64,000 bases of DNA, taken from NCBI RefSeq assembly GCF_014646255.1, contig NZ_BMNC01000001.1:875722-939721 (forward strand), read 5' to 3'. The position numbers and the translations under genes are program-made. The notes beneath the pieces are model-generated. The model saw only the letters and a list, made by a program, of their open reading frames with translations. It made no database searches and was not told the origin of the DNA. Within the stretch, counting starts at the first letter, position 1. Every line of letters begins with the position of its first letter. The stretch is from Lentzea pudingi (GTDB taxonomy: Bacteria; Actinomycetota; Actinomycetes; Mycobacteriales; Pseudonocardiaceae). Shown here in pieces: positions 2,199 through 62,348 of this stretch.

Positions 2199-2726
2199 GT
2201 GGCTGGTAAAGGAATGTGGACGATGCTCCTGCTCGCGATGGTGACGGCTTGCACACCCGCGCCCCCGCAGCCGGCGACGATGCAGGTGAAGACGACCGGC
2301 GACGGCAGCATCCCGAAGAACGAGACCATCTCGCTGGACGACGACCAGCACGCGGCCATCGCGAACCTCGACCCCGAGTTGCTCGCGGCGATGCGCAAGG
2401 CCGCCGCCGACGCGAAGCTCAAGAGTGTCGAGTTCCGGGTGACGTCGGGCTGGCGCAGTGCGGAGTACCAGCAGCGGCTGCTGGACGAGGCGGTCGAGCT
2501 GTACCGCAGCGAGGAGGAGGCGCGGCGGTGGGTGCACCCGCCGGAGAAGTCGGCGCACGTCACGGGCAAGGCGATCGACGTCGGGCCGACCAACGCCGAC
2601 GACTGGCTTATCCAGCACGGCTCGGACTACGGGCTGTGCCAGGCCTATGCCAACGAGATGTGGCACTTCGAGCTGCTCACGACGCCCGGTGGGCAGTGTC
2701 CGCAGCCGCAGAGCAACGCCGGCTAA
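2199..2726 (+). CDS. D-alanyl-D-alanine carboxypeptidase (VanY family) lipoprotein
   Basis: A 175-residue exported peptidase of the VanY/MEROPS M15 type, expected to trim D-Ala-D-Ala from peptidoglycan stem peptides. The N-terminus MAGKGMWTMLLLAMVTAC is a short lipoprotein signal ending in a VTAC lipobox. Zinc-site motifs are visible: SGWRSAEYQ, SAHVTGKAIDVG (His and Asp ligands) and EMWHFE (His ligand). A GTG at 2199 is preferred because it includes the Lys before the hydrophobic run; the ATG at 2214 is possible. The stop overlaps the convergent PaaX-family gene by four bases. The small size is usual for single-domain VanY enzymes. Confidence 0.88.
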   Translation: MAGKGMWTMLLLAMVTACTPAPPQPATMQVKTTGDGSIPKNETISLDDDQHAAIANLDPELLAAMRKAAADAKLKSVEFRVTSGWRSAEYQQRLLDEAVELYRSEEEARRWVHPPEKSAHVTGKAIDVGPTNADDWLIQHGSDYGLCQAYANEMWHFELLTTPGGQCPQPQSNAG

Positions 2727-3547
2727 CGGCCGTGGATCACGGCCAGCGCGTGTTCGCGGGCCGGTGCGCTCAGGGTGGTGTTGAGCTCCTCGAACAGGGC
2801 CTCGGCGGTGACGCCGTTCCAGCCGGGAGGCAGCAGCGACAACGGGAGGCCGGGGTCGCTGTACGGCAGGCGGCGCCACGCGGTGAGCATCGGGACATAG
2901 GTCTGGAAGGCCTGCTCGGGTGAGATGACGCCATCATCCAGGAACGGGCGGTGGCGGCGCACGAAGTCCGCGTACAGGTCGGTCAGCTCGTCGAGGTCCC
3001 ACCAGGCGCGCACCTTCGAGCGCAGGTCGCCGAACGCGAAGTGCTGGCCCGCGAAGATGTCGACGTACTCGGACAGGCCGCGGCGTTCCAGGGTGCGGCG
3101 GGTCTCCGTCGCGAGGTTGCCCGGTGCCACCCACACGCCGGGGGCCGTGGTGCCGAAGCCGAGCTGGGTCAGGCTGGTGCGCAGGGCGTGGCGCTTGTCG
3201 CGTTCGGACTCGGGCACGGAGAAGACGACGACCAGCCAGCCGTCCTCGGCGGTGGCGCGGCGGCGTTCGAAGATGCGGGTGTCGCCCTCGGCCAGCGTCT
3301 CCAGGGTGGACTCGGCCAGCGCGTAACCGGCACCGTCGCGGCGTTCGGCCCGCACCACGCCCCGGCGCTTCAGGCGCGAGATCGACGACCGCACCGCCTG
3401 ACCCTCGACGCCCAGGTCGGCCATGAGCTGCACGACGGACGCGACGGAGAGCCAGTTGTGCTCGCCGCGCGCATAAAGGCCGAAGATCGTGATGATGAGC
3501 GGGCCGAGCCGGTCGCGCCCGGCGGGAGCCGCGGCTTCCACGGTCAT
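2723..3547 (-). CDS. PaaX-family transcriptional regulator
   Basis: A 274-residue regulator. Residues 10-75 (GPLIITIFGLYARGEHNWLS through SISRLKRRGVV) form the N-terminal winged helix of PaaX proteins. The centre (WLVVVFSVPESERDKRHALR, LGFGTTAPGVWVAPG) is the PaaX-like dimerisation region. The C-terminus (WWDLDELTDLYADFVRRHRPFL) is the conserved PaaX C domain. PaaX proteins usually repress aromatic catabolism and release DNA on binding an aryl-CoA thioester. Lying beside CoA-ligase and aryl-CoA hydroxylase genes, this one is the likely sensor of the pathway intermediate. The ATG at 3547 (MTVEAAAPAGRD) is preferred over an upstream start with a low-complexity extension. Confidence 0.9.
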   Translation of the reverse strand: MTVEAAAPAGRDRLGPLIITIFGLYARGEHNWLSVASVVQLMADLGVEGQAVRSSISRLKRRGVVRAERRDGAGYALAESTLETLAEGDTRIFERRRATAEDGWLVVVFSVPESERDKRHALRTSLTQLGFGTTAPGVWVAPGNLATETRRTLERRGLSEYVDIFAGQHFAFGDLRSKVRAWWDLDELTDLYADFVRRHRPFLDDGVISPEQAFQTYVPMLTAWRRLPYSDPGLPLSLLPPGWNGVTAEALFEELNTTLSAPAREHALAVIHGR

Positions 3548-3593
3548 GTCCGCGACGTCCAGTGCCCTCTCCTCACCTTGATCAGCCGAGCTT

Positions 3594-3699
3594 AACGCCC
3601 GGCCCGCCCAGGCGGTGTCCGACGATGTCGTTCGGTGAGAGGCGCGGGCGATCCCTCGGCTGCCACTATCGCCCGACGACAACGCCCGGCCCGCCCAGG
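3594..3699. repeat. 19-bp direct repeat flanking the FAH gene 3' end
   Basis: AACGCCCGGCCCGCCCAGG occurs exactly at 3594-3612 and 3681-3699. The second copy encodes the last residues of the FAH-family protein; the first lies in the gap before the PaaX gene. It looks like a small tail duplication of the gene rather than a functional site. Confidence 0.6.
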
Positions 3700-4544
3700 T
3701 CCGTCAGCGTGACGGTGTTGCGCAGCTCGCCCAGGCCGCTGACCCGCGTCACGACGACGTCGCCGTCGCGCAGGAAGAGCTGCGGCTCGCGGGCGTTGCC
3801 GACGCCGCTGGGGGTGCCGGTCAGGACCACGTCGCCCGCGCGCAGGGTCATGCCCTGGCTGAGCTCGGCGATGATCTGCGCGAACGAGAACGCCATCTGC
3901 TCGCTCGACGCGTCCTGCAGCAGCACGCCGTTGACCTCGCACTGCACCCGCATCCCCGTCAGGTCGACGGAGTCGACGGTGGTCAGCCACGGGCCGAGGG
4001 GCATTGTCGCGTCGAGGCTCTTGCCTTTGAGCCACTGGCCGCCGTGCGCGCGTTGCAGGTCGCGCTGCGAGACGTCGTTCGCGACGAGGAAGCCGAACAC
4101 GTGGTCCAGCGCCTTCTCCTCCGGGATCGACCGGCCGTCGCGCCCGATGACCATCGCGATCTCCGCCTCGTAGTCCCACTTCTGGGACACCGCCGGGTCG
4201 TACGCGATCGGGTCGGACGGACCGATGACCGTGTCCGGGCCCTTGGTGAAGAAGGTCGGCCGCAGCGGGCGGGAGACCGGGTCCTGCCCCTCGCGCTTGC
4301 CCGCGGACTCGTCGAAGTGGTCCCAGTAGTTCCAGCCGGTGCACAGGATGTCGCGGTTGAACCGGTGCAACGGCGCCTCCAGCCGCACCTCGGCCAACGG
4401 CAGCACCTCGGCGCCGGACACGTCGGCCGGTGCCCCGCGCACGATGTCGTCGACCGTGGTGGACAACACCGAGACGAGACGTCTCGTCTCGTCAATGACT
4501 GCCGCGCGCCGCACGCCGCCGACCGTCACGGATGCGAGCTTCAC
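3666..4544 (-). CDS. Fumarylacetoacetate hydrolase-family protein
   Basis: A 292-residue FAH-family hydrolase, a metal-dependent group that cleaves C-C bonds of acylpyruvates or decarboxylates/hydrates similar acids. Motifs are ILCTGWNYWDHFDE, FFTKGPDTVIGPSDPI, WDYEAEIAMVIG (metal-binding Glu pair), FLVANDVSQRDLQR and GDVVLTGTPSGVG. An N-terminal FAH-like segment precedes the barrel. In gentisate-type routes this family hydrolyses the ring-cleavage product, which fits its place beside a cupin and an aryl-CoA hydroxylase. It is transcribed with RidA upstream on the minus strand, 58 bases apart. A perfect 20-bp palindrome lies inside the gene at 4471-4490. Substrate is inferred only. Confidence 0.9.
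   Translation of the reverse strand: MKLASVTVGGVRRAAVIDETRRLVSVLSTTVDDIVRGAPADVSGAEVLPLAEVRLEAPLHRFNRDILCTGWNYWDHFDESAGKREGQDPVSRPLRPTFFTKGPDTVIGPSDPIAYDPAVSQKWDYEAEIAMVIGRDGRSIPEEKALDHVFGFLVANDVSQRDLQRAHGGQWLKGKSLDATMPLGPWLTTVDSVDLTGMRVQCEVNGVLLQDASSEQMAFSFAQIIAELSQGMTLRAGDVVLTGTPSGVGNAREPQLFLRDGDVVVTRVSGLGELRNTVTLTDLGGPGVVVGR
4471..4490. promoter_or_regulatory. Perfect 20-bp palindrome in the 5' part of the FAH gene
   Basis: GAGACGAGAC followed directly by its reverse complement, 55-74 bases inside the gene from the start codon. It could be an intragenic operator or an RNA hairpin. Codon use around it is normal, so chance cannot be excluded. Confidence 0.3.
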
Positions 4545-4587
4545 CCGCGAACCTCCTCGGATATCGCGTTCGCGTTTCGTAGATCAT

Positions 4588-4604
4588 GAATACGCTATCG
4601 ATTC
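4588..4604. promoter_or_regulatory. Possible operator upstream of FAH gene (GAATACG element)
   Basis: GAATACGCTATCGATTC: GAAT and ATTC are inverted around a 9-base spacer. The word GAATACG recurs at 5049-5055 in the RidA/cupin divergent promoter, with GTATT inverted at 5022-5026. Sharing between the two promoter regions of one pathway suggests a common regulator such as the PaaX protein. Confidence 0.35.
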
Positions 4605-5019
4605 AGCTCGGCCTGACCAGGCGCTCCTCGGGGATCACCGCGACGCCGAGGATCTCGATGAGTGCCTCGGGCTGCCACAACGCGGTGCAGCCGATACCCG
4701 CCATGGCCGGGTAGACGGGCCCGGCGAGCTCGCGCCACACCTTGCCGATCTCCTTGCCGTGGGCCTGGTAGCCGGGGATGTCGGTGAGGTAGATCGTGAT
4801 GCTGACCAGGTCTTCCGGCTCGCCACCGGCCGCGCGCAACGTGGTGAGCACGTTGCCGAACGCCTGGCGGAACTGCTCGACGATCCCGCCCGGGACGATC
4901 TTCATGTCCGCGTCCAGCGCGGTCTGCCCGCCCAGGTACAACGTCGAACCCGCCAGGGTGCCGTGGGAGTAGCCGCTCGGCGCCGGAAGGCTGGCCGGGT
5001 TCACTGCTGCTGGCCTCAT
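4603..5019 (-). CDS. RidA-family enamine/imine deaminase
   Basis: A 138-residue RidA/YjgF/UK114-family protein. Members hydrolyse reactive enamines or imines, releasing ammonia, and some act in aromatic amine catabolism (2-aminomuconate deaminase). Motifs are YSHGTLAGSTLYLGGQTALD, FGNVLTTLRAAGGEPEDLVSITIYLTD and YPAMAGIGCTALWQPEALIEI. The usual catalytic Arg near GTxxRP is replaced here by GCTALW, so a specialised substrate is likely. It is divergent from the cupin gene and precedes the FAH gene. In a pathway from anthranilate it is the obvious candidate to remove the amino group. The ATG at 5019 has no good ribosome-binding site, so the message may be leaderless. Confidence 0.88.
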   Translation of the reverse strand: MRPAAVNPASLPAPSGYSHGTLAGSTLYLGGQTALDADMKIVPGGIVEQFRQAFGNVLTTLRAAGGEPEDLVSITIYLTDIPGYQAHGKEIGKVWRELAGPVYPAMAGIGCTALWQPEALIEILGVAVIPEERLVRPS

Positions 5020-5059
5020 GAGTATTGACACTATCTGACGGTCGTGAAGAATACGAGAT
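5020..5059. promoter_or_regulatory. Divergent promoter region of the aromatic catabolic cluster
   Basis: Only 40 bases separate the RidA and cupin start codons. The gap contains GTATT (5022-5026) and AATAC (5050-5054) in inverted orientation. Both promoters must overlap here, so one bound repressor could control both arms. No clear -35/-10 pair is evident. Confidence 0.4.
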
Positions 5060-5542
5060 ATGGAGCCCGACCTGAGCAAGTACCAGCTCGACGGCGACAA
5101 CTCGATGTACCGGCTGCCCAGCGGCCTGGTCGCGCCGGTCGTCACGCGCGGCGGTGCCGAGAACCCGGACACCGCGAACTCCGGCGGCGCGATCCGGATC
5201 TCGGGCGTGAGCATCCAGCACACCCCGGCGACGAAGCTGTGGTTCGGCAAGGTCACCAACGAGCCCGGCTACCGCTCGGTCACCCACCACCACGGTGAGG
5301 CCGAGACCGGCGGGTACGTGCTGTCCGGCCGCGCGCGGATCTACTTCGGCGAGAGGTTCGAGGACTACGTCGACATGCAGGAGGGCGACTGGGTGTTCGT
5401 GCCCCCGTTCATGCCGCACATCGAGTGCAACCTCGACCGCAACAACCCGCTCACGTGGATGACCACGCGGACGCCGGAGAACATCGTCGTGAACCTCGAC
5501 GACGTGCCGGACGAGGACCTGCGCGACTGGCTGACCCGATGA
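5060..5542 (+). CDS. Cupin-domain protein, possible ring-cleavage dioxygenase
   Basis: A 160-residue single-domain cupin. YRSVTHHHGEAETGGYVLSG gives the first cupin motif with metal-binding His-His and Glu; GDWVFVPPFMPHIECN gives the second with its His. It therefore keeps a plausible Fe/Mn/Ni site. Gentisate 1,2-dioxygenases are bicupins of about 350 residues, so this is too short to be one. Small cupins can still be dioxygenases, isomerases or decarboxylases. It opens the plus-strand operon and overlaps the thioesterase gene as ATGA. I infer it acts on the hydroxylated ring or the product after thioester removal; the reaction is not known. Confidence 0.8.
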   Translation: MEPDLSKYQLDGDNSMYRLPSGLVAPVVTRGGAENPDTANSGGAIRISGVSIQHTPATKLWFGKVTNEPGYRSVTHHHGEAETGGYVLSGRARIYFGERFEDYVDMQEGDWVFVPPFMPHIECNLDRNNPLTWMTTRTPENIVVNLDDVPDEDLRDWLTR

Positions 5543-6426
5543 CGACCTCCAGGACGTTCACCGACGCCATCACGCTGGAGAAGGCCGAGGCGGAGCACTT
5601 CGACCTGGCCTTCACGGCCGTCACCCAGCCCTGCCCGTGGCCCAAGGCCTACGGCGGGGACCTGGTCGCCGCCGCCGCGGCCGCCGCCATGCGCTCGGTC
5701 ACCGACGGCAAGACGCTGCACTCGATGCACAGCTACTTCCTGCGCCCCGCCGACATCGGCGCGAGTGTGCGGTACGAGGTCGAGGTGCTGCGCGACGGCC
5801 GCGGCTACAGCACGCGGCAGGTCCGCGGCTACCAGAACGGCAAGCCCCTCTACGTCTGCCTCGCGAACTTCGCCGCGGGGGAACCGGGTGGCAGCTTCCA
5901 GGCGGAGACCGGCGCGCTGCCCGGCCCGGACGAGGTGCCGAGCACCGCGGACTTCCTCGCCGGACGCTCCGGCGGCACGATGACCGAGGAGTCCCAGGCC
6001 TACTGGTCGGCGGGCCGCAGCTTCGACATGCGGCACGTGCCCGGCCCCGTCTACCTCGACGTCGAGGGCGACGAGGTGCCGCACCAGGCCGTGTGGATCA
6101 AGCCATTCGACCCGCTGCGGCCGGTCGACGGACTGACCGCAGCCCAGCGCGACCTCGCCGCGCTGGCCTACGTCTGCGACTACACGATCCTCGAGCCGGT
6201 CCTGCGGGTGCTCGACCTGCCGTGGGCTCAGCCGGGCCTCGTCACCGCGAGCCTCGACCACGCCATGTGGTTCCACCGCGCGGGCCCGGTCGACGACTGG
6301 CTGCTCTACGTGCAGGAGGCCGTCGCCGCCGACGAGGGCCGTGGCCTGGGGTACGGCCGCTTCTTCACCCGCGATGGTCTGCACCTCGCCACCGTTGCCC
6401 AGGAGGGCATGATCCGCGCTTCCTGA
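5539..6426 (+). CDS. Acyl-CoA thioesterase (TesB-like, double hot dog)
   Basis: A 295-residue acyl-CoA thioesterase II-type enzyme. The N-terminal hot-dog half has PWPKAYGGDLVAAAAAAAMR and LHSMHSYFLRPAD, standard TesB signatures (usually GGQ, here GGD). The C-terminal half ends ASLDHAMWFHRAGPVDDWLLY, with the Asp of the conserved SLDH motif, and GRFFTRDGLHLATVAQEGM. It would release free acids from CoA thioesters in the cytoplasm. Placed between a cupin and a CoA ligase, it probably removes CoA after ring hydroxylation, as in the salicylyl-CoA to gentisate route. The start overlaps the cupin stop; the ligase follows after 25 bases. Confidence 0.92.
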   Translation: MTTSRTFTDAITLEKAEAEHFDLAFTAVTQPCPWPKAYGGDLVAAAAAAAMRSVTDGKTLHSMHSYFLRPADIGASVRYEVEVLRDGRGYSTRQVRGYQNGKPLYVCLANFAAGEPGGSFQAETGALPGPDEVPSTADFLAGRSGGTMTEESQAYWSAGRSFDMRHVPGPVYLDVEGDEVPHQAVWIKPFDPLRPVDGLTAAQRDLAALAYVCDYTILEPVLRVLDLPWAQPGLVTASLDHAMWFHRAGPVDDWLLYVQEAVAADEGRGLGYGRFFTRDGLHLATVAQEGMIRAS

Positions 6427-6451
6427 CCCGCCGCCCGCGGAAGGACCCACC

Positions 6452-8038
6452 ATGGACACCTTCGCCCGTGACCACTTACCTCCCCCGGCGCTGTGGCCGG
6501 CGATCGAGTTCACGACGCCCGAGCTGGAGTACCCGGCCAGGCTGAACGCCGCCACCGAGCTCATCGACGTCCCGGTGGCGCGGTTCGGCCCCGGCCGCCC
6601 CGCACTGCGCACCCCCGCCGGCGAGGTCTGGTCGTACGGCGAGCTGCGGACCCGCGCCAACCAGGTGGCCCAGGTGCTGGCCGAGGACCTCGGTCTCGTG
6701 CCAGGGCAACGGGTTCTGCTGCGCTCGCCCAACAACCCGTGGACCGTGGCCGCGTGGCTCGGCGTCCTCAAGGCGGGCGGTGTCGCGGTGACGACCATGG
6801 CCGCGCTGCGGACCCGCGAGCTCCTGCCGATCGTCGAGCGGACCCGTCCTTCGATCGCGCTGGTGGATCCGCGGTTCACCGCGGACGTCGAGGAGCTGAC
6901 GTCGCTGACCGTGGTGGACTACGACGACCTCCAGGTGCTCGCCGCCACCAAGCCGGGGGAGTTCGCCGCCGTGGACACCGCCGCGGACGACGTGGCACTG
7001 CTCGCGCCGACGTCCGGCAGCACCGGGTCACCGAAGATCACCGCGCACTTCCACCGCGACGTCCTGTCGATCGACAACACCTTCGGCCGGCACGTGCTGC
7101 GGCTGACCGAGGACGACGTCGTCGCGTGCACGGCCCCGTTCGCCTTCACGTTCGGCCTGGGCATGCTCGTCGTGTTCCCGTTGCGGGCCGGTGCCTGCGC
7201 GTTGCTGACCGAGGCCGGCACGCCCGCCCAGGTCGCGGACTTCGTGGCACAGCAGGGAGTCACGGTGCTCGCGACCGCGCCGACCGCGTACAAGGCGATC
7301 CTGCGCAACGGCGTCGAGGCGAAGCTCGGCGGCCTGCGGACCGCGGTGTCGGCCGGTGAGCACATCCCCCAGGAGACCTGGCAACGGCTGCACGACCGGC
7401 TCGGGCTCCGCGTGATCGACGGCATCGGCGCCACGGAGCTGTTGCACATCTTCATCTCCGCCGCCGGGGACGACATCCGGCCGGGCTCCACCGGCAGGCC
7501 CGTGCCGGGCTACCGCGCTACCGTGCTCGGCGCCGGCGGCGAGGAGCTCGGTCCCGGCGAACCCGGACGGCTCGCGGTGATCGGCCCCGTCGGCTGCCGC
7601 TACCTCGACGACGAGCGGCAGAAGGACTACGTGGTGAACGGCTGGAACGTCACCGGCGACGTCTTCCACCGCGACGAGGACGGCTACTTCCACTACCACG
7701 CCCGCAGCGACCACATGATCGTGTCATCCGGTTACAACATCGGCGGCCCCGAGGTCGAGGAGGCCATCGACACCCACCCGGACGTGCTGGAGTCCGCCGT
7801 CGTCGCCAAGCCCGACGACGAACGCGGCGCGGTCGTCTGCGCGTTCGTGGTGCTGCGCGAGGGCGTCGAGGGCGACGAGGCGAAGGCCCGCGAGATCCAG
7901 GACCACGTGAAGCGCACCATCGCGCCGTACAAGTACCCGCGTGAGGTCCGGTTCCGCACCTCGTTGCCCCGCAACGCGAGCGGCAAGCTGCAGCGCTTCG
8001 CACTCCGCAAGATCGTCGAGGAGGAGGTGCCGGCGTGA
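6452..8038 (+). CDS. 2-aminobenzoate (or salicylate) CoA ligase, AMP-forming
   Basis: A 528-residue ANL-superfamily ligase activating an aryl carboxylate with ATP and CoA. The start, MDTFARDHLPPPALWP, is like known 2-aminobenzoate-CoA ligases. Core motifs are LLAPTSGSTGSPK (P-loop, about residues 185-197), GIGATELLHIF, GWNVTGDVFHRDEDGYFHYH and YNIGGPEVEEAI, with the C-terminal catalytic Lys in PRNASGKLQRFALRK. It is followed directly, with a GTGA overlap, by a fused aryl-CoA hydroxylase/reductase. That pairing is known from anthranilate degradation in Azoarcus evansii and salicylate degradation in Streptomyces. RidA in the cluster favours anthranilate. A Shine-Dalgarno (CGGAAGGA) precedes the ATG. 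Confidence 0.92.
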   Translation: MDTFARDHLPPPALWPAIEFTTPELEYPARLNAATELIDVPVARFGPGRPALRTPAGEVWSYGELRTRANQVAQVLAEDLGLVPGQRVLLRSPNNPWTVAAWLGVLKAGGVAVTTMAALRTRELLPIVERTRPSIALVDPRFTADVEELTSLTVVDYDDLQVLAATKPGEFAAVDTAADDVALLAPTSGSTGSPKITAHFHRDVLSIDNTFGRHVLRLTEDDVVACTAPFAFTFGLGMLVVFPLRAGACALLTEAGTPAQVADFVAQQGVTVLATAPTAYKAILRNGVEAKLGGLRTAVSAGEHIPQETWQRLHDRLGLRVIDGIGATELLHIFISAAGDDIRPGSTGRPVPGYRATVLGAGGEELGPGEPGRLAVIGPVGCRYLDDERQKDYVVNGWNVTGDVFHRDEDGYFHYHARSDHMIVSSGYNIGGPEVEEAIDTHPDVLESAVVAKPDDERGAVVCAFVVLREGVEGDEAKAREIQDHVKRTIAPYKYPREVRFRTSLPRNASGKLQRFALRKIVEEEVPA

Positions 8039-10395
8039 GGATCGCTGTCGTCGGTGGTGGCCCCGCGGGCCTGTACTTCGCCGCGCTGATGAAACAGCTC
8101 GACCCCTCGCATGACGTCACCATCTGGGAACGCGACGCAGCGGACGTGACGTTCGGCTTCGGCGTGGTGTTCTCCGACGAGACGCTCGGCGGGATCGAGA
8201 ACGCGGACCCGGAGTTCGCCGGCGCCATGTCCCGCCGGTTCGCCCGGTGGACGGACATCGACATCCACCACCGCGGCGAGAGCCACACCGTGGGCGGGCA
8301 GGGGTTCGCCGCGATGAGCCGCAAGGAGCTTCTCCACCTGCTCCAGCAGCGGTGTCGCGACCTCGGCGTCGTCGTGCACTTCTCGACGCCCGCGCCGCCC
8401 GTCGACGTCCTGCGGGGGAGTCACGACCTCGTGGTCGGCGCGGACGGCGTGAACTCGCTGGTGCGGCAGTCCTCGCCGGACGTCTTCCGCTCCACTGTGG
8501 ACCGACGGCACAACAAGTACATGTGGCTCGGCACGGACCGCGTGTTCGAGGCGTTCCAGTTCTTCATCAAGGACACGCCGTGGGGGACCATGCAGGTCCA
8601 CGGCTATCCCTACTCCGACAGCGGTTCCACGTTCATCGTCGAGATGCACGAGGACGTCTGGCGCCGCGCCGGGTTCGACACCGCCGAGGAGTTCGCGCCG
8701 GGTGTGTCGGACGAACGCGCGGTCGACCGGATCCGCGAGTTGTTCGCGGAGGAGCTGGCGGGCCACCAGGTGTTCGCCAACAACTCGAAGTGGCTCAGCT
8801 TCACCACCGTGCGGAATGTCCGCTGGCACGACGGCAACCTGGTCCTCGTCGGCGACGCCGCGCACACCGCGCACTTCTCCATCGGCTCGGGCACGAAGCT
8901 CGCGATGGAGGACTCGCTCGCCCTCGCCGCGTGCCTGCACGAACACCGCGACGTCGAGACCGCGCTGACGGCCTACGAGACCGAACGGCGCCCCGTCGTG
9001 GAATCGACTCAACGCGCCGCGCAGGCGTCCCTGGAGTGGTTCGAGAACATCGGCATGTACGCCGGGCAGGAGCCGACCCGGTTCTGCTTCAACCTGCTCA
9101 CGCGCTCGCGCCGGATCACCTACGACAACCTCCGCACCCGCGACCCGGAGTTCGCCGACCGCGTCGACGCCGCGTTCGCCGCGTCGCAGGGGCTCGAGAC
9201 CACGGTCCCGGCCATGTTCCAGCCGTTCCGCCTGGGGCGGCTGGAGCTCAAGAACCGCGTGATCGTCTCCGCGATGGACATGTACTCGGCGGCAGACGGC
9301 GTGCCCGGCGACTTCCACCTCGTCCACCTGGGCTCCAAGGCCATGGGCGGCGCGGGACTGGTCATGACCGAGATGGTCTGCGTATCGCCGGAAGGCCGCA
9401 TCACGCCCGGCTGCACCGGCCTGTGGACCGACGAGCAACGCGACTCGTGGGCACGGATCGTGGCCTTCGCGCACGAGCGAAGCACCGCGCGCATCGGCTT
9501 GCAGCTCGGCCATTCCGGCCGCAAGGGCTCGACCCGCCTGATGTGGGAGGGCATGGACGAACCACTGCCGGAGGGCGGCTGGGACGTCGTCGGCCCGTCG
9601 CCGCTGCCGTACGGGCCGGGGTCACCCGTCCCCGCCGGGGCGACCCGCGGCGACCTCGACCGGATCACGGCCGAGTTCACCGCCGCCGCGCGACGCGGTG
9701 CCGAAGCGGGGTTCGACCTGCTCGAACTGCACTGCGCGCACGGCTACCTGCTGTCGTCGTTCCTCTCACCGGTGGCCAACCAGCGCACCGACGAGTACGG
9801 CGGCTCGCTGGAGAACCGGCTGAGGTACCCGCTGGAGGTGTTCGACGCCGTGCGGGCGGTGTGGCCGGCCGAGCGCCCGATGATCGTGCGCATCTCCGCG
9901 ACCGACTGGGTCGACGGCGGCAACACCGAGCACGACGCCGTGCAGATCGCCCGCGCGTTCATCGCCCACGGCGCAGACGCGATCGACGTGTCCACTGGCC
10001 AGGTCACGGCCGACGAACGCCCGGCGTACGGCCGCAGCTACCAGACCCCGTTCGCGGACCGGATCCGCCACGAGGTGACCGGTGCCGCCGTCATCGCGGT
10101 GGGCGCCATCGCCTCCTACGACGACGTCAACTCCATCCTGCTCGCGGGCCGCGCCGACCTGTGCGCGATCGGCCGCACACACCTCTACGACCCGCACTGG
10201 ACGCTGCACGCGGCGGCCGAGCAGGACTACCGCGGCGCCGAGTGGCCTGTCCAGTACCGGGCGGGCAGCCGCAAGCCGCCGTCCGCGCGCACCGACGCCG
10301 TCCGGCCGCGGTTGTCCCTGTTGCGGGCCGAGCCGCCGGACCGGGACGTGCACCTGCGCTGGACCCCGCACCGGGAGCATTCGCTTCTCGCATAG
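8035..10395 (+). CDS. Fused aryl-CoA 5-hydroxylase / old yellow enzyme (2-aminobenzoyl-CoA monooxygenase/reductase type)
   Basis: A 786-residue two-domain flavoenzyme. Residues 1-390 are an FAD monooxygenase: VVGGGPAGLYF at the N-terminus, DLVVGADGVNSLVR, and LVGDAAHTAHFSIGSG near residue 275. Residues 392-760 are an old yellow enzyme-type FMN reductase: MFQPFRLGRLELKNRVIVSAM, ELHCAHGYLLSSFLSP, RTDEYGGSLENR and VGAIASYDD. The architecture is that of 2-aminobenzoyl-CoA monooxygenase/reductase, often annotated as bifunctional salicylyl-CoA 5-hydroxylase/oxidoreductase. It would hydroxylate C5 of the CoA-bound ring and may then reduce it to a non-aromatic enone, using NAD(P)H and O2. It is the last gene of the operon. 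Confidence 0.93.
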   Translation: MRIAVVGGGPAGLYFAALMKQLDPSHDVTIWERDAADVTFGFGVVFSDETLGGIENADPEFAGAMSRRFARWTDIDIHHRGESHTVGGQGFAAMSRKELLHLLQQRCRDLGVVVHFSTPAPPVDVLRGSHDLVVGADGVNSLVRQSSPDVFRSTVDRRHNKYMWLGTDRVFEAFQFFIKDTPWGTMQVHGYPYSDSGSTFIVEMHEDVWRRAGFDTAEEFAPGVSDERAVDRIRELFAEELAGHQVFANNSKWLSFTTVRNVRWHDGNLVLVGDAAHTAHFSIGSGTKLAMEDSLALAACLHEHRDVETALTAYETERRPVVESTQRAAQASLEWFENIGMYAGQEPTRFCFNLLTRSRRITYDNLRTRDPEFADRVDAAFAASQGLETTVPAMFQPFRLGRLELKNRVIVSAMDMYSAADGVPGDFHLVHLGSKAMGGAGLVMTEMVCVSPEGRITPGCTGLWTDEQRDSWARIVAFAHERSTARIGLQLGHSGRKGSTRLMWEGMDEPLPEGGWDVVGPSPLPYGPGSPVPAGATRGDLDRITAEFTAAARRGAEAGFDLLELHCAHGYLLSSFLSPVANQRTDEYGGSLENRLRYPLEVFDAVRAVWPAERPMIVRISATDWVDGGNTEHDAVQIARAFIAHGADAIDVSTGQVTADERPAYGRSYQTPFADRIRHEVTGAAVIAVGAIASYDDVNSILLAGRADLCAIGRTHLYDPHWTLHAAAEQDYRGAEWPVQYRAGSRKPPSARTDAVRPRLSLLRAEPPDRDVHLRWTPHREHSLLA

Positions 10396-57633: not shown

Positions 57634-59616
57634 ATGAGCTGGGAAAACAATCCTTTTTCACGGCTTGACACGGTCGAGGGCGTCGAGGCCGTCCTCGGGC
57701 GGCCGGCGTCGGTGATCATGCTGAAGCAGCTCGGCGCGCTCGACGAGGGATGTGTGGACCTGCTCGCGCGCAGCCCGATCGCGGGGTTCGGGTACCGCGG
57801 TGCGGACGGCCTGAGCAGGACGACGTTCGTCGGTGGCGGGCCGGGGTTCGCGCGGGTGCACTCGCCGACGCGGATCTCGTTCGACCTGGGGGACGCCGAC
57901 GGGCCGGCGTCGATGGTCTTCCTGGTGCCGGGAGTCGGGGAGACGTTGCGGGTCAACGGTGCCGTGCGTCGCGGCGGCTTCGACGTCGAGCAGGTGTACG
58001 TCCACTGCGCCCAAGCCGTGCTGCGGTCCGGACTGTGGCAGCCGCCAGAGCCGGCGCCGCCTGCTCCCGAGGTCGGCGACGGTCCGCTCGCGGCGGCCGG
58101 TGTCGCGGACTTCCTCGCCGCCGCACCGTTCCTGGCCCTGTCCACATGGGACTCGGCGGGTGGCGCCGACACCAGCCCGCGCGGGGAACAGGGGATGGTG
58201 GCGCGGGTCCTCGACGGCCACACCCTGCTGATCGCGGACCGGCGCGGCAACAAGCGCGCCGACACGCTGCACAACCTGGTCGAGGACGACCGGCTCTCGT
58301 TCGCCGCGCTCGTGCCGGGACGCACCGGTGTCGTGCACGTCCGGGGACGCGCGACGATCTCCGTGGACCCCGTCCTGCTGGAACCGTTGTCGCTGCGGGG
58401 GATCCCGCCGCACGCCGCCCTGCTCATCGACGTCGAGGCCGCCGAGCTGAGGGCGAACGACGCGGTGACGCGGTCCCGGCTGTGGACCTCCGCCCTGCCC
58501 GCCGACGTGCCCGACCTGATGGCGCTCGCGGGTCGTCACCTGGCCGCGAACACCACGAGGGGCGGCTTCCTGTTCAAGATCGCCGGCCTGATTCCCGCGC
58601 GGTGGTTGCGGGCGGTGATGAACGTCGCCTACCGCTCTGGCCTGCGCAAGGAGGGCTACGAGGTCGTCCTGAAACCCCGTGCCGTGACTGAGGATCCGCT
58701 GCGCGCGGTGCGTGTCGCCGAGGTGCGGCAGGAGACGCCGAGCGCCGTGACGCTGGTGCTGGAGGACGACCGGCCGTTCGACTTCCGGCCGGGCCAGTTC
58801 TTCACGCTCGTGGCCGACGTCGGCGGCGTCCAGCTGCGCAGGCCCTACTCGGCCTCGTCGGCACCAGGGTCGCGGCGGCTGGAGGTGACGGTCAAGGTGG
58901 TGGGCCGGTTCTCCCGTCACGTCCGCACGCTCGTGGCCGGTGACCGGCTGTTCGTGCGCGGCCCTTCGGGCACGTTCCACGCGGAGCCCGGTCACGAGGT
59001 GGTGCTGATCGCGGCGGGCAGTGGTGTCACGCCGATGATGAGCATCATCCGCACCCTGCTCGCACAGCCGGGTGGCCGCATCTCCCTGCTCTACAGCAAC
59101 AGGACCGCGGAGGAGACCATCTTCGCCGCCGAACTGGCGAGGCTGGGGGAGCAGCACCCCGGAAGGCTCGCCGTCACCCACGTCCACACCTCGCGCGACG
59201 GACGGCTGGACGTTCCCGGTGTGCGGAAGTGGGCGGCCGGGTTCTCTCCCGCCGCGCGGTTCTACGTCTGCGGTCCGGAACCCCTGATGAACACCGTGCG
59301 CCAGGCGCTGGACGAGCTGGACGTCCCGGCTGACCGCGTGCACTGCGAGAGCTACACCAGTGCGTCGGTGGCGGCGGGGTCCCTGACACCGCGACGGATG
59401 GTCGTCGAGGGTGTCGGCGAGGCGGTGGCGGAGCCGGGGCAGACGTTGCTCGACGCCGGACTGGCCGCCGGTCTGCCGATGCCGTACTCCTGCACGGTGG
59501 GCAGTTGCCGGGAGTGCGTGGTGAAACTCCTCGCCGGGAAGGTGACGAGCGAGGAGGACGGTCAGGTTCTCGCGTGCACCAGCGCGCCGCTGACGGACGT
59601 CACGCTGGAACTGTGA
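57634..59616 (+). CDS. Fused pyridoxamine-oxidase-like / ferredoxin reductase / [2Fe-2S] protein
   Basis: A 660-residue three-part redox protein. Residues 30-270 hold a PNPOx-like flavin-binding split barrel (ALSTWDSAGGADTSPRGEQG, LLIADRRGNKRADTLHNLVE). Residues 345-570 are an FNR-type reductase: FRPGQFFTLVADVGG, LRRPYSASSAPGS (FAD), VLIAAGSGVTPMMSIIRTLL (NAD(P)). The end, residues 580-660, is a plant-type ferredoxin with PYSCTVGSCRECVVKLL and VLACTSAP (Cys x4 Cys x2 Cys, then Cys). Electrons should flow from NAD(P)H through flavin to the cluster and to the N-terminal domain or a partner. TetR-controlled; substrate unknown. Confidence 0.92.
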   Translation: MSWENNPFSRLDTVEGVEAVLGRPASVIMLKQLGALDEGCVDLLARSPIAGFGYRGADGLSRTTFVGGGPGFARVHSPTRISFDLGDADGPASMVFLVPGVGETLRVNGAVRRGGFDVEQVYVHCAQAVLRSGLWQPPEPAPPAPEVGDGPLAAAGVADFLAAAPFLALSTWDSAGGADTSPRGEQGMVARVLDGHTLLIADRRGNKRADTLHNLVEDDRLSFAALVPGRTGVVHVRGRATISVDPVLLEPLSLRGIPPHAALLIDVEAAELRANDAVTRSRLWTSALPADVPDLMALAGRHLAANTTRGGFLFKIAGLIPARWLRAVMNVAYRSGLRKEGYEVVLKPRAVTEDPLRAVRVAEVRQETPSAVTLVLEDDRPFDFRPGQFFTLVADVGGVQLRRPYSASSAPGSRRLEVTVKVVGRFSRHVRTLVAGDRLFVRGPSGTFHAEPGHEVVLIAAGSGVTPMMSIIRTLLAQPGGRISLLYSNRTAEETIFAAELARLGEQHPGRLAVTHVHTSRDGRLDVPGVRKWAAGFSPAARFYVCGPEPLMNTVRQALDELDVPADRVHCESYTSASVAAGSLTPRRMVVEGVGEAVAEPGQTLLDAGLAAGLPMPYSCTVGSCRECVVKLLAGKVTSEEDGQVLACTSAPLTDVTLEL

Positions 59617-60715: not shown

Positions 60716-61567
60716 GTGACCGTGGACGCGGGACGTGCCCAGAACCTGACCGACCTGATGCGCGACAGCGCGGAGCCGCTGATCGACGAGTGGGTGGGCG
60801 TGGTCGCGGCGCTGCTGCGCGGGCGGTCGACGAAGACGGAGCTCGAAGCCGACTTCAGGGAGTTCTTCGCGGCACTGCTGCCCGTGGTCGGCAGCGACGG
60901 CAAGGACATCGGCGGGCCGGAGTTCACCGACCTCCGCGCGTTCCTGGAGGAGTACTCGCGCTCCCGGGTCCGGGCGGGCTTCACCCCGACGGAGACGGCG
61001 TCGAGCGTGTTCTCCCTCAAGCGCGTGGTCTTCGACCTCACCGAGAGCAGCGACGACCCGCAGATGTTCCGCCAGCTCATGGCGTTCTCGGGGCTGCTGG
61101 ACGCGCTCGGCCTGCTGACCTTCGAGTCCTTCGCGCGGGTCCGTGAGGAGATCATCCGGGAGCAGTCCGAGCAGCTCCTCGAGCTCACCACGCCGGTCGT
61201 CAAGGTGTGGGAGGGCGTGCTGGCGGTGCCGCTGGTCGGCACCCTCGACTCGGCGCGCACCCAGGTCGTGATGGAGAAGCTGCTCGAAGCGCTGGTCGAG
61301 ACCGGGTCCGAGCACGCGATCATCGACATCACCGGTGTGTTCGCGGTCGACACCCAGGTCGCGCAGCACCTGCTCAAGACGGTCGTCGCGGCACGGCTGA
61401 TGGGCGCGGAGTGCATCGTGTCCGGCATCCGCCCGCAGATCGCGCAGACGATCGTGGCGCTGGGCATCGAGTTCGGCGACATCGTCACCAAGGCCTCCCT
61501 CGCCGACGCGCTGCGGCACGCGCTGCGCCGTGAGGGCGTCGACGTCGTGCGCAGCGAGATCGCCTGA
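60716..61567 (+). CDS. rsbR: RsbR-type STAS co-antagonist
   Basis: A 283-residue RsbR-like protein. An N-terminal helical sensor domain (residues 1-155, LIDEWVGVVAALLRGRSTKT) precedes a C-terminal STAS domain (residues 165-275). Two likely phospho-Thr sites are in VFAVDTQVAQHL and RPQIAQTIVALG, as in RsbRA. STAS proteins of this type assemble with RsbS into a stressosome that holds RsbT until phosphorylated. No haem or flavin site is seen in the sensor part. GTG start with GGAGACC upstream; the stop overlaps the next start as TGATG. Confidence 0.92.
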   Translation: MTVDAGRAQNLTDLMRDSAEPLIDEWVGVVAALLRGRSTKTELEADFREFFAALLPVVGSDGKDIGGPEFTDLRAFLEEYSRSRVRAGFTPTETASSVFSLKRVVFDLTESSDDPQMFRQLMAFSGLLDALGLLTFESFARVREEIIREQSEQLLELTTPVVKVWEGVLAVPLVGTLDSARTQVVMEKLLEALVETGSEHAIIDITGVFAVDTQVAQHLLKTVVAARLMGAECIVSGIRPQIAQTIVALGIEFGDIVTKASLADALRHALRREGVDVVRSEIA

Positions 61568-61935
61568 TGGAACGCGTACCGATTCTGAAGATCGGTGGCC
61601 TCCTGCTCGTCTCCATCCAGATCGACCTGCAGGACCAGAGCGTGCTGGCCCTGCAGGAGGACCTGGCGGAGAAGATCAGCGCCACCGGCGCCCACGGCGT
61701 GATCATCGACATCTCGGCGGTCGAGATCGTCGACTCGTTCATCGGCCGGATGTTCGCCACGATCGCCGGCATCTCCCGGCTGTTCGACGCGGACACCGTG
61801 GTCGTGGGCATGCGCCCGGCGGTCGCGATCACCCTGGTGGAACTGGGTCTCACGCTCGGCGGGGTGCGCACGGCGCTCGACCTCGAACGCGGCATGAAGA
61901 TCCTGGGACAGCTCGGTCGCGGACGGGACTCCTGA
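61567..61935 (+). CDS. rsbS: RsbS-type STAS antagonist
   Basis: A 122-residue single-domain STAS protein. IPILKIGGLLLVSIQIDLQ-like start (VPILKIGGLLLVSIQ), GVIIDISAVEIVDSFIGRMF with the phospho-Ser in DSF, and VVVGMRPAVAITLVELGLTL. It is the scaffold partner of RsbR and the target of RsbT kinase. Length and motif match RsbS. Translation is coupled to both neighbours (overlaps at 61567 and 61933-61935). Confidence 0.93.
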   Translation: MERVPILKIGGLLLVSIQIDLQDQSVLALQEDLAEKISATGAHGVIIDISAVEIVDSFIGRMFATIAGISRLFDADTVVVGMRPAVAITLVELGLTLGGVRTALDLERGMKILGQLGRGRDS

Positions 61936-62348
61936 TGCCGCCCCGGTCCGAGGGACCGGAGGAACTGCCGATCACCGCCGACGACGACGTCGTCCGCGTT
62001 CGCCAACTCGTGCGGACCTACGCACAGCAGACCAAGCTCTCGCTGGTGGACCAGACGAAACTGGTCACCGCGGCGAGTGAGCTCGCGCGCAACACGCTCA
62101 TCTACGGCGGGGGAGGCTTCGCCCGCGTCGAGGAGGTCAGCGACGGACGCCGCGCGGGCGTGCGGGCCTCCTTCCACGACGAGGGACCCGGCATCCCCGA
62201 CCTGACGCTCGCCCTGGCCGACGGCTGGAGCAGCGGCAGCGGGCTCGGCCTCGGCCTGAGCGGCGCGAAGCGCCTGGTGGACCAGTTCGACCTCGACACC
62301 GAGGTCGGGCGCGGCACGGTCGTGACGGTGACCAAGTGGAAGAGATGA
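61935..62348 (+). CDS. rsbT: RsbT-type serine kinase
   Basis: A 137-residue HATPase-fold kinase. LVTAASELARNTLIYGGGG is the N box, FHDEGPGIPDLTLALADG the G1 box and SGSGLGLGLSGAKRLVDQFD the G2 box. RsbT phosphorylates RsbS and RsbR; once freed it activates a phosphatase. Start overlaps the RsbS stop (TGATG) and the end overlaps the next gene as ATGA. Confidence 0.93.
   Translation: MPPRSEGPEELPITADDDVVRVRQLVRTYAQQTKLSLVDQTKLVTAASELARNTLIYGGGGFARVEEVSDGRRAGVRASFHDEGPGIPDLTLALADGWSSGSGLGLGLSGAKRLVDQFDLDTEVGRGTVVTVTKWKR

Follow-up and report, generated by a model that had tools for sequence, protein, structure and literature searches.

A block of seven genes occupies positions 2,723 to 10,395 of the window, by which we mean the whole 64,000-nucleotide stretch analysed here (Lentzea pudingi contig NZ_BMNC01000001.1, positions 875,722 to 939,721, from a genome of 9.2 Mb). 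The block probably serves the breakdown of anthranilate through coenzyme A (CoA) esters. An earlier note on this DNA had described the seven genes as two divergent arms, and gene models together with domain searches confirmed that all of them are intact and lie where it had placed them. A 40-base gap separates the arms: RidA, the FAH hydrolase and PaaX are encoded leftward, and the cupin, the thioesterase, the ligase and a fused monooxygenase/reductase (hereafter the fusion) rightward. The genes are as follows.

2723..3547, minus strand: PaaX-type transcriptional regulator; the open reading frame (ORF) could begin at 3682
3666..4544, minus strand: FAH-family hydrolase, proposed succinylpyruvate (acylpyruvate) hydrolase; PF01557, 232 bits
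4603..5019, minus strand: RidA-superfamily protein, proposed deaminase of a CoA-bound cyclic enamine; ATG start, ORF extends further upstream; PF01042
5060..5542, plus strand: 160-aa single-cupin protein, proposed ring-opening dioxygenase; PF07883
5539..6426, plus strand: TesB-type acyl-CoA thioesterase; PF02551, PF20789 and PF13622
6452..8038, plus strand: AMP-forming aryl-CoA ligase, proposed anthranilate-CoA ligase; PF00501, benzoate-CoA ligase family TIGR02262
8035..10395, plus strand: FAD monooxygenase/old-yellow-enzyme (OYE) fusion, proposed anthraniloyl-CoA monooxygenase/reductase; NF006101, both halves in Pfam

The fusion scored 1211.6 bits against NF006101, above the cut-off of 1078; its N-terminal half matches VioD and its C-terminal half xenobiotic reductases. 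The ligase scored 326 bits against TIGR02262, under the cut-off of 375. The two are about 73% (fusion) and 63% (ligase) identical to their counterparts on plasmid pAL1 of the quinaldine-degrading Arthrobacter sp. Rue61a. We propose that the fusion is a predicted anthraniloyl-CoA hydroxylase/reductase, with the gene context pointing to anthranilate. As a separate observation, an Actinomycetota group (L122-L132, L151 and L152, with context viewed in the last two) has fusions 45–49% identical to that of the window and below the NF006101 cut-off.

Scanning genome contigs with the fusion returned 560 stretches encoding relatives. We kept the best 80 loci, so that close kin are over-represented among them; all 80 are Actinomycetota by title and come from many genera, Lentzea being nearest for the block, with fusions up to 94% identical to that of the window. 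RidA, the cupin, the TesB-type thioesterase and the fusion occur together in 80 of 80 loci, the ligase in 79, a PaaX-like gene in 64 and FAH in 56, and the neighbourhoods beyond the block vary widely from genus to genus. The FAH gene comes in two subtypes in this set, one window-like and one 38–47% identical to it, on the opposite strand and ahead of the cupin. Loss of synteny in relatives had been named in the earlier note as grounds for abandoning its reading; the four-gene core is kept throughout.

As a counterweight to the over-representation of close kin among the 80 loci, we searched an even draw of 396 Actinomycetota genomes, 19 of which, the window's own included, encode a fusion above the cut-off. 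Among the other 18, two were of the cupin type, 15 carried acyl-CoA dehydrogenase and/or hydratase genes, and one had neither. Two below-cut-off loci and 20 plasmid loci picked for variety, three of them fusion-free, were also added. Classing by tblastn (45% coverage, E-value 1e-5, within 9 kb) divided the 118 fusion loci into 89 of the cupin type, 26 of the beta-oxidation type and three of neither, the two types excluding each other; the counts are not independent, because the set contains many closely related loci. At an identity of at least 41%, a line set after the values were seen, acyl-CoA dehydrogenase or hydratase was present in 26/26 beta-oxidation-type versus 0/89 cupin-type loci. 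Remote matches (26–37% identity) lie several kb off in four of the latter (L042, L053, L057 and L067). The window block likewise holds no beta-oxidation genes, as the earlier note had remarked. Conversely, none of the 26 beta-oxidation-type loci was matched by tblastn with the cupin, TesB or FAH queries; L097, one of these, has an annotated FAH-family gene in an adjoining sugar-kinase/2-hydroxyacid dehydrogenase group, which the FAH queries missed at E 1e-5. TesB was found in 86/89 cupin-type and 0/26 beta-oxidation-type loci, and FAH in 65/89 of the former; every cupin-type locus (89/89) has either TesB or a small thioesterase, the small thioesterase also being present in 6/26 beta-oxidation-type loci. 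Since the modules exclude each other across the fusion loci, thioesterase, cupin and FAH most simply take the place of beta-oxidation. This supports the earlier idea that RidA, cupin and FAH are parts of one system. RidA, however, is not special to that set: it accompanies 89/89 cupin-type, 23/26 beta-oxidation-type and 0/3 neither-type loci (112/118 overall). Because it accompanies both types, it probably acts on the fusion product that they have in common.

In a tree of 57 fusions (57 of 59 rows kept; L101 and L142 left out), two changes are required to explain the distribution of the cupin label, and both are most simply gains. A rhizobial cupin-type pair, both rows of which have unusual composition, is nested among beta-oxidation-type fusions as sister to Ensifer and Aminobacter fusions at 100/100. 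The same cupin family and FAH also occur without the fusion on two plasmids, L093 (Alloyangia), where they adjoin tripartite ATP-independent periplasmic (TRAP) transporter and short-chain dehydrogenase/reductase (SDR) genes, and L095 (Rhodococcus ruber); the pair may therefore serve other substrates as well. A different small cupin was seen in three alphaproteobacterial beta-oxidation-type loci (L098:13538-13990, L097:14519-14971 and L159:17713-18165); its identity with the cupin of the rhizobial pair is 24% (E 0.003).

The substrate of the block is very probably anthranilate, a breakdown product of tryptophan and indole. Plasmid pAL1 carries the same gene set. According to the publication on Rue61a (PMC3534580; this and the other papers are cited from passages of their text), this strain breaks quinaldine down to anthranilate, expression of two anthranilate-CoA ligases gave enzymes active on anthranilate, and anthraniloyl-CoA was detected in cells on this substrate. 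Acids of the formulas C7H7NO3 and C7H8O4 were detected as CoA esters with anthranilate only, and the authors suggested hydroxyanthraniloyl-CoA and cyclohexanedione-carboxyl-CoA. The same passages report no growth on 5-hydroxyanthranilate, gentisate or salicylate, and cometabolic conversion of 5-hydroxyanthranilate (PMC3534580). By our reading of the gene order, ARUE_113p00220 and 00230 correspond to the ligase and the fusion adjoining the pAL1 cupin; the record that we used has other locus tags. In Rhodococcus erythropolis BG43 the gene set adjoins the aqd genes for degradation of the Pseudomonas quinolone signal (PQS), a pathway that ends in octanoate and anthranilic acid (PMC8961568). An isatin hydrolase gene lies near 10 of the 89 cupin-type loci, that of L079 matching the solved isatin hydrolase 4j0n at E 1e-76. 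Counting isatin hydrolase, a thiamine pyrophosphate (TPP) enzyme, kynureninase or tryptophan dioxygenase, 18/89 cupin-type and 8/26 beta-oxidation-type loci have such a neighbour; that the TPP enzyme, whose matches are general ones, is an isatinate decarboxylase is a guess. The window's own genome has adjacent relatives of tryptophan 2,3-dioxygenase (39%) and kynureninase (48%) on another contig (C5:307728-309628), the latter with one TAG within the matched stretch, and this pair is a possible source of anthranilate.

RidA matches PF01042 at 75 bits (cut-off 27.3). The cupin matches PF07883 above the cut-off, and its HxH-E-H metal site is complete, with H76, H78, E82 and H120 invariant in 55 homologues down to 31% identity. 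A family search matched 1961 proteins, not all of them from such blocks. The structural model (pLDDT 69.9) supports a cupin fold only; a first model (pLDDT 52.8) was too poor and was discarded. Dke1, a diketone-cleaving cupin and possible analogue, was not among the fold matches shown. The PDB kin of the FAH protein are diketo-acid, maleylpyruvate and acylpyruvate hydrolases, including FAHD1, and the best match is named a decarboxylase. Its HxxE pair and acidic metal positions, whose role we presume to be as in FAHD1, are invariant in the 14 aligned FAHs of cupin-type loci, two further FAHs having been filtered out.

Taken together, these results suggest, with a probability of roughly 0.55, a CoA-dependent anthranilate pathway in which the ring is reduced, deaminated and opened with O2, ending in succinate and pyruvate; every step after the ligase is a prediction for blocks of this kind. 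The ligase would convert anthranilate to anthraniloyl-CoA, the activity published for the Rue61a ligases (PMC3534580), which supports the CoA activation proposed in the earlier note. Hydroxylation by the fusion, also proposed there, is likewise supported as a prediction. RidA would then hydrolyse the CoA-bound enamine left by the fusion to 2,5-dioxocyclohexanecarboxyl-CoA and ammonia. The TesB-type thioesterase would release the beta-keto acid, or would act only once the cupin has cleaved. The cupin, with its three-His/one-Glu metal site and O2, would cleave the enol at C1-C2 to 2,4-dioxoheptanedioate, that is succinylpyruvate (C7H8O6), which FAH would hydrolyse to succinate and pyruvate. As the ring is already reduced, a maleylpyruvate isomerase would not be required. 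The formulas of the pathway all balance, and the acid predicted after RidA, C7H8O4, has the formula detected as a CoA ester in Rue61a. The genes and the substrate of the route sketched in the earlier note, the latter supported by the pAL1, BG43 and isatin hydrolase contexts, hold up; its order of steps holds up less well. It had RidA deaminating after ring opening, and early action on the enamine is more likely, since the beta-oxidation type has RidA too; for the cupin, a reduced, deaminated ring is a likelier substrate than an aromatic one.

Several observations weigh against this pathway. A second ligase/fusion pair is present in Rue61a, and a plasmid-free mutant still grows on anthranilate (PMC3534580). 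That study used formic acid to quench its extracts, and the enamine does not stay stable below pH 5 (PMC3534580), so that the C7H8O4-CoA ester may be an artefact of the quench. Once free, the beta-keto acid may decarboxylate. In 24 of the 89 cupin-type loci there is no FAH within 9 kb; of 13 genomes with such loci that were searched, two encode a close FAH at another place, whereas in the other 11 there were only relatives at 42–48%. No ligase lies nearby in 5/26 beta-oxidation-type and 3/89 cupin-type loci. The arginine of the PAR motif is needed for catalysis in canonical RidA imine deaminases, and PDB relatives have it in 5/5 alignments shown, yet methionine replaces it in 33/33 RidAs from both pathway types. 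This replacement would fit a substrate whose carboxyl is a thioester, and could as well mean another activity. Finally, the fold of the cupin model fits many cupins equally, with tied matches, and the weak sequence kin of the cupin, the closest among its 17 PDB matches, are oxalate decarboxylases.

The last point bears on the possibility that the cupin is a decarboxylase or tautomerase, with FAH opening the ring of the beta-keto acid by hydrolysis to 4-oxoheptanedioate and general beta-oxidation completing the route. The metal site alone leaves the reaction undefined, and the lack of FAH near some cupin-type loci suggests that cupin and FAH may not be strictly serial. We nevertheless regard this as improbable: loss of CO2 would give 1,4-cyclohexanedione, which offers no 1,3-dicarbonyl for FAH, and the cupin module occurs in place of beta-oxidation genes, not alongside them. 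Somewhat more credible, although still unlikely, is an aromatic route in which the fusion yields 5-hydroxyanthraniloyl-CoA without net reduction of the ring, the thioesterase releases 5-hydroxyanthranilate, whose aromatic ring is opened by the cupin, and the opened product is deaminated by RidA before FAH cleaves it. In 1968 anthranilate was suggested to follow a 5-hydroxyanthranilate/gentisate route in Nocardia opaca, as described in a review (PMC4539516); the C7H7NO3 ester of Rue61a is presumably hydroxyanthraniloyl-CoA (PMC3534580), ring-cleaving single-cupin dioxygenases exist (PMC10306065), and a thioesterase is present in every cupin-type locus. However, the OYE half of the fusion would stand idle, RidA is also found in the beta-oxidation type, where a ring-opened enamine is not expected, and Rue61a did not grow on 5-hydroxyanthranilate or gentisate (PMC3534580), for which uptake could be the explanation.

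That the block acts on salicylate or another 2-substituted benzoate has very little in its favour beyond the name of NF006101, salicylyl-CoA 5-hydroxylase, and one plasmid locus of Cupriavidus taiwanensis (L160:8001-12533). There the fusion lies among insertion sequence (IS) elements beside a 375-aa bicupin and FAH, and RidA was not found, as a salicylate-gentisate route predicts; this is possibly a true salicylate-gentisate arrangement. RidA in all cupin-type loci and neighbouring genes that supply anthranilate argue against such a substrate for the block, as do the lack of growth of Rue61a on salicylate and the activity of its ligases on anthranilate (PMC3534580).

We also examined how the block might be regulated. 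The N-terminal, middle and C-terminal PaaX Pfam domains of the regulator all score above their cut-offs; against the phenylacetate equivalog it reaches 145.6 bits, under the cut-off of 264.55. The pAL1 block is flanked by two PaaX-type regulators, to which the window protein is 49–51% identical; its identity to that of BG43 is 57%. PF08803 gave no match in the window's own genome. Two candidate elements lie in or beside the gap between the arms.

5036..5047, no strand assigned: palindrome-like operator candidate TGACGGTCGTGA, found by pattern scan with TGACGNNCGTNA
5025..5052, plus strand: promoter-like pair TTGACA-16-AAGAAT for the cupin arm, a consensus match only (1 found versus a mean of 0.0 in 50 shuffles)

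The pattern was tested as the presumed site of MeqR2, the Rue61a repressor of PaaX type that is said to be responsive to anthraniloyl-CoA. Of 78 loci (78 of 81 counted; in the other three the gene caller missed RidA), 55 have it in the RidA-divergent gap, and none of the 59 permuted half-sites exceeds 2 of 78; elsewhere in the loci the pattern occurs at 0.025 matches per kb. In pAL1, BG43 and a Tsukamurella plasmid it is present between RidA and FAH as well. It was not found in the cupin-type loci L145, L146, L101 and L153, and in L094 it lies outside the block; the 11 beta-oxidation-type loci scanned gave one match, about 2 kb from RidA (L147). Two other operator-like sites in the window, at 5612-5623 within the thioesterase gene and at 59591-59602 within the end of an unrelated gene, were taken as chance. 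The 5036-5047 site takes up the greater part of the spacer that separates TTGACA from AAGAAT, overlaps AAGAAT by one base and ends 12 bases 5′ of the cupin ATG. Since this ATG comes only 7 bases past the -10-like hexamer, the cupin mRNA may be leaderless. The PaaX-type repressor, probably sensing anthraniloyl-CoA, would govern both arms through this site. Far from the block, three genes in a row at 60716-62348 resemble, by eye, what we take to be an RsbR-RsbS-RsbT stressosome module.

The upper part of the pathway is already known. For the cupin/thioesterase/FAH module, no description was found in the passages of openly licensed literature searched, so one may be in print elsewhere. A 2022 pathway-curation paper states that tryptophan degradation via anthraniloyl-CoA monooxygenase/reductase was omitted for lack of knowledge (PMC9007349), and a 2018 review of indole degradation that the functional gene of the gentisate route was not known (PMC6221969). 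The block supplies a candidate gene for each step past anthraniloyl-CoA monooxygenase/reductase, a reason for RidA and predicted intermediates that can be measured, and it is relevant to the breakdown of indole, quinaldine and alkylquinolones by soil actinomycetes. In its broadest form the proposal is of a complete new aerobic anthranilate pathway, one that parallels the gentisate pathway but uses CoA activation and a dearomatised ring. A RidA lacking the canonical Arg would deaminate a CoA-bound cyclic enamine, and succinylpyruvate would arise when a new small-cupin family oxygenolytically cleaves a cyclic beta-keto acid that is not aromatic; the cassette would be interchangeable and would have joined the fusion at least twice, replacing beta-oxidation, and would share a PaaX-type operator in Actinomycetota. 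We give this whole about an even chance. If true, it would tell what a large family of still unnamed cupins does; its confirmation would likely close a gap in the picture of how many soil bacteria complete anthranilate breakdown, by a route unlike those published.

The proposed logic of the lower steps is that of the gentisate pathway, in which a cupin cleaves oxygenolytically at C1-C2 and FAH then hydrolyses an acylpyruvate; the route proposed here differs in that it would use a reduced ring, yield succinate rather than fumarate and need no isomerase. The bicupin gentisate 1,2-dioxygenase of that pathway is missing from the block, which has only the 160-aa single cupin, and a bicupin was seen beside the L160 fusion only. 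The ring-cleaving 5-nitrosalicylate 1,2-dioxygenase likewise has a single cupin domain (PMC10306065); unlike the window cupin, it has a three-His site without the Glu, and it is not among the PDB matches of the latter. With the 2-aminobenzoyl-CoA monooxygenase/reductase pathway of Azoarcus evansii the block shares the anthranilate-CoA ligase and the fused hydroxylase/reductase, and RidA adjoins the related beta-oxidation-type loci too. Azoarcus evansii, compared here by description only from passages of a review (PMC4539516), has beta-oxidation genes, where the block has thioesterase, cupin and FAH instead. As to Rue61a, the passages of its publication do not discuss the cupin, FAH, thioesterase or RidA, the words ‘cupin’ and ‘YjgF’ having 0 occurrences (PMC3534580). 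The FAH of pAL1 is of the other subtype and lies ahead of the cupin, unlike that of the window; its block otherwise has the same genes in the same kind of divergent layout.

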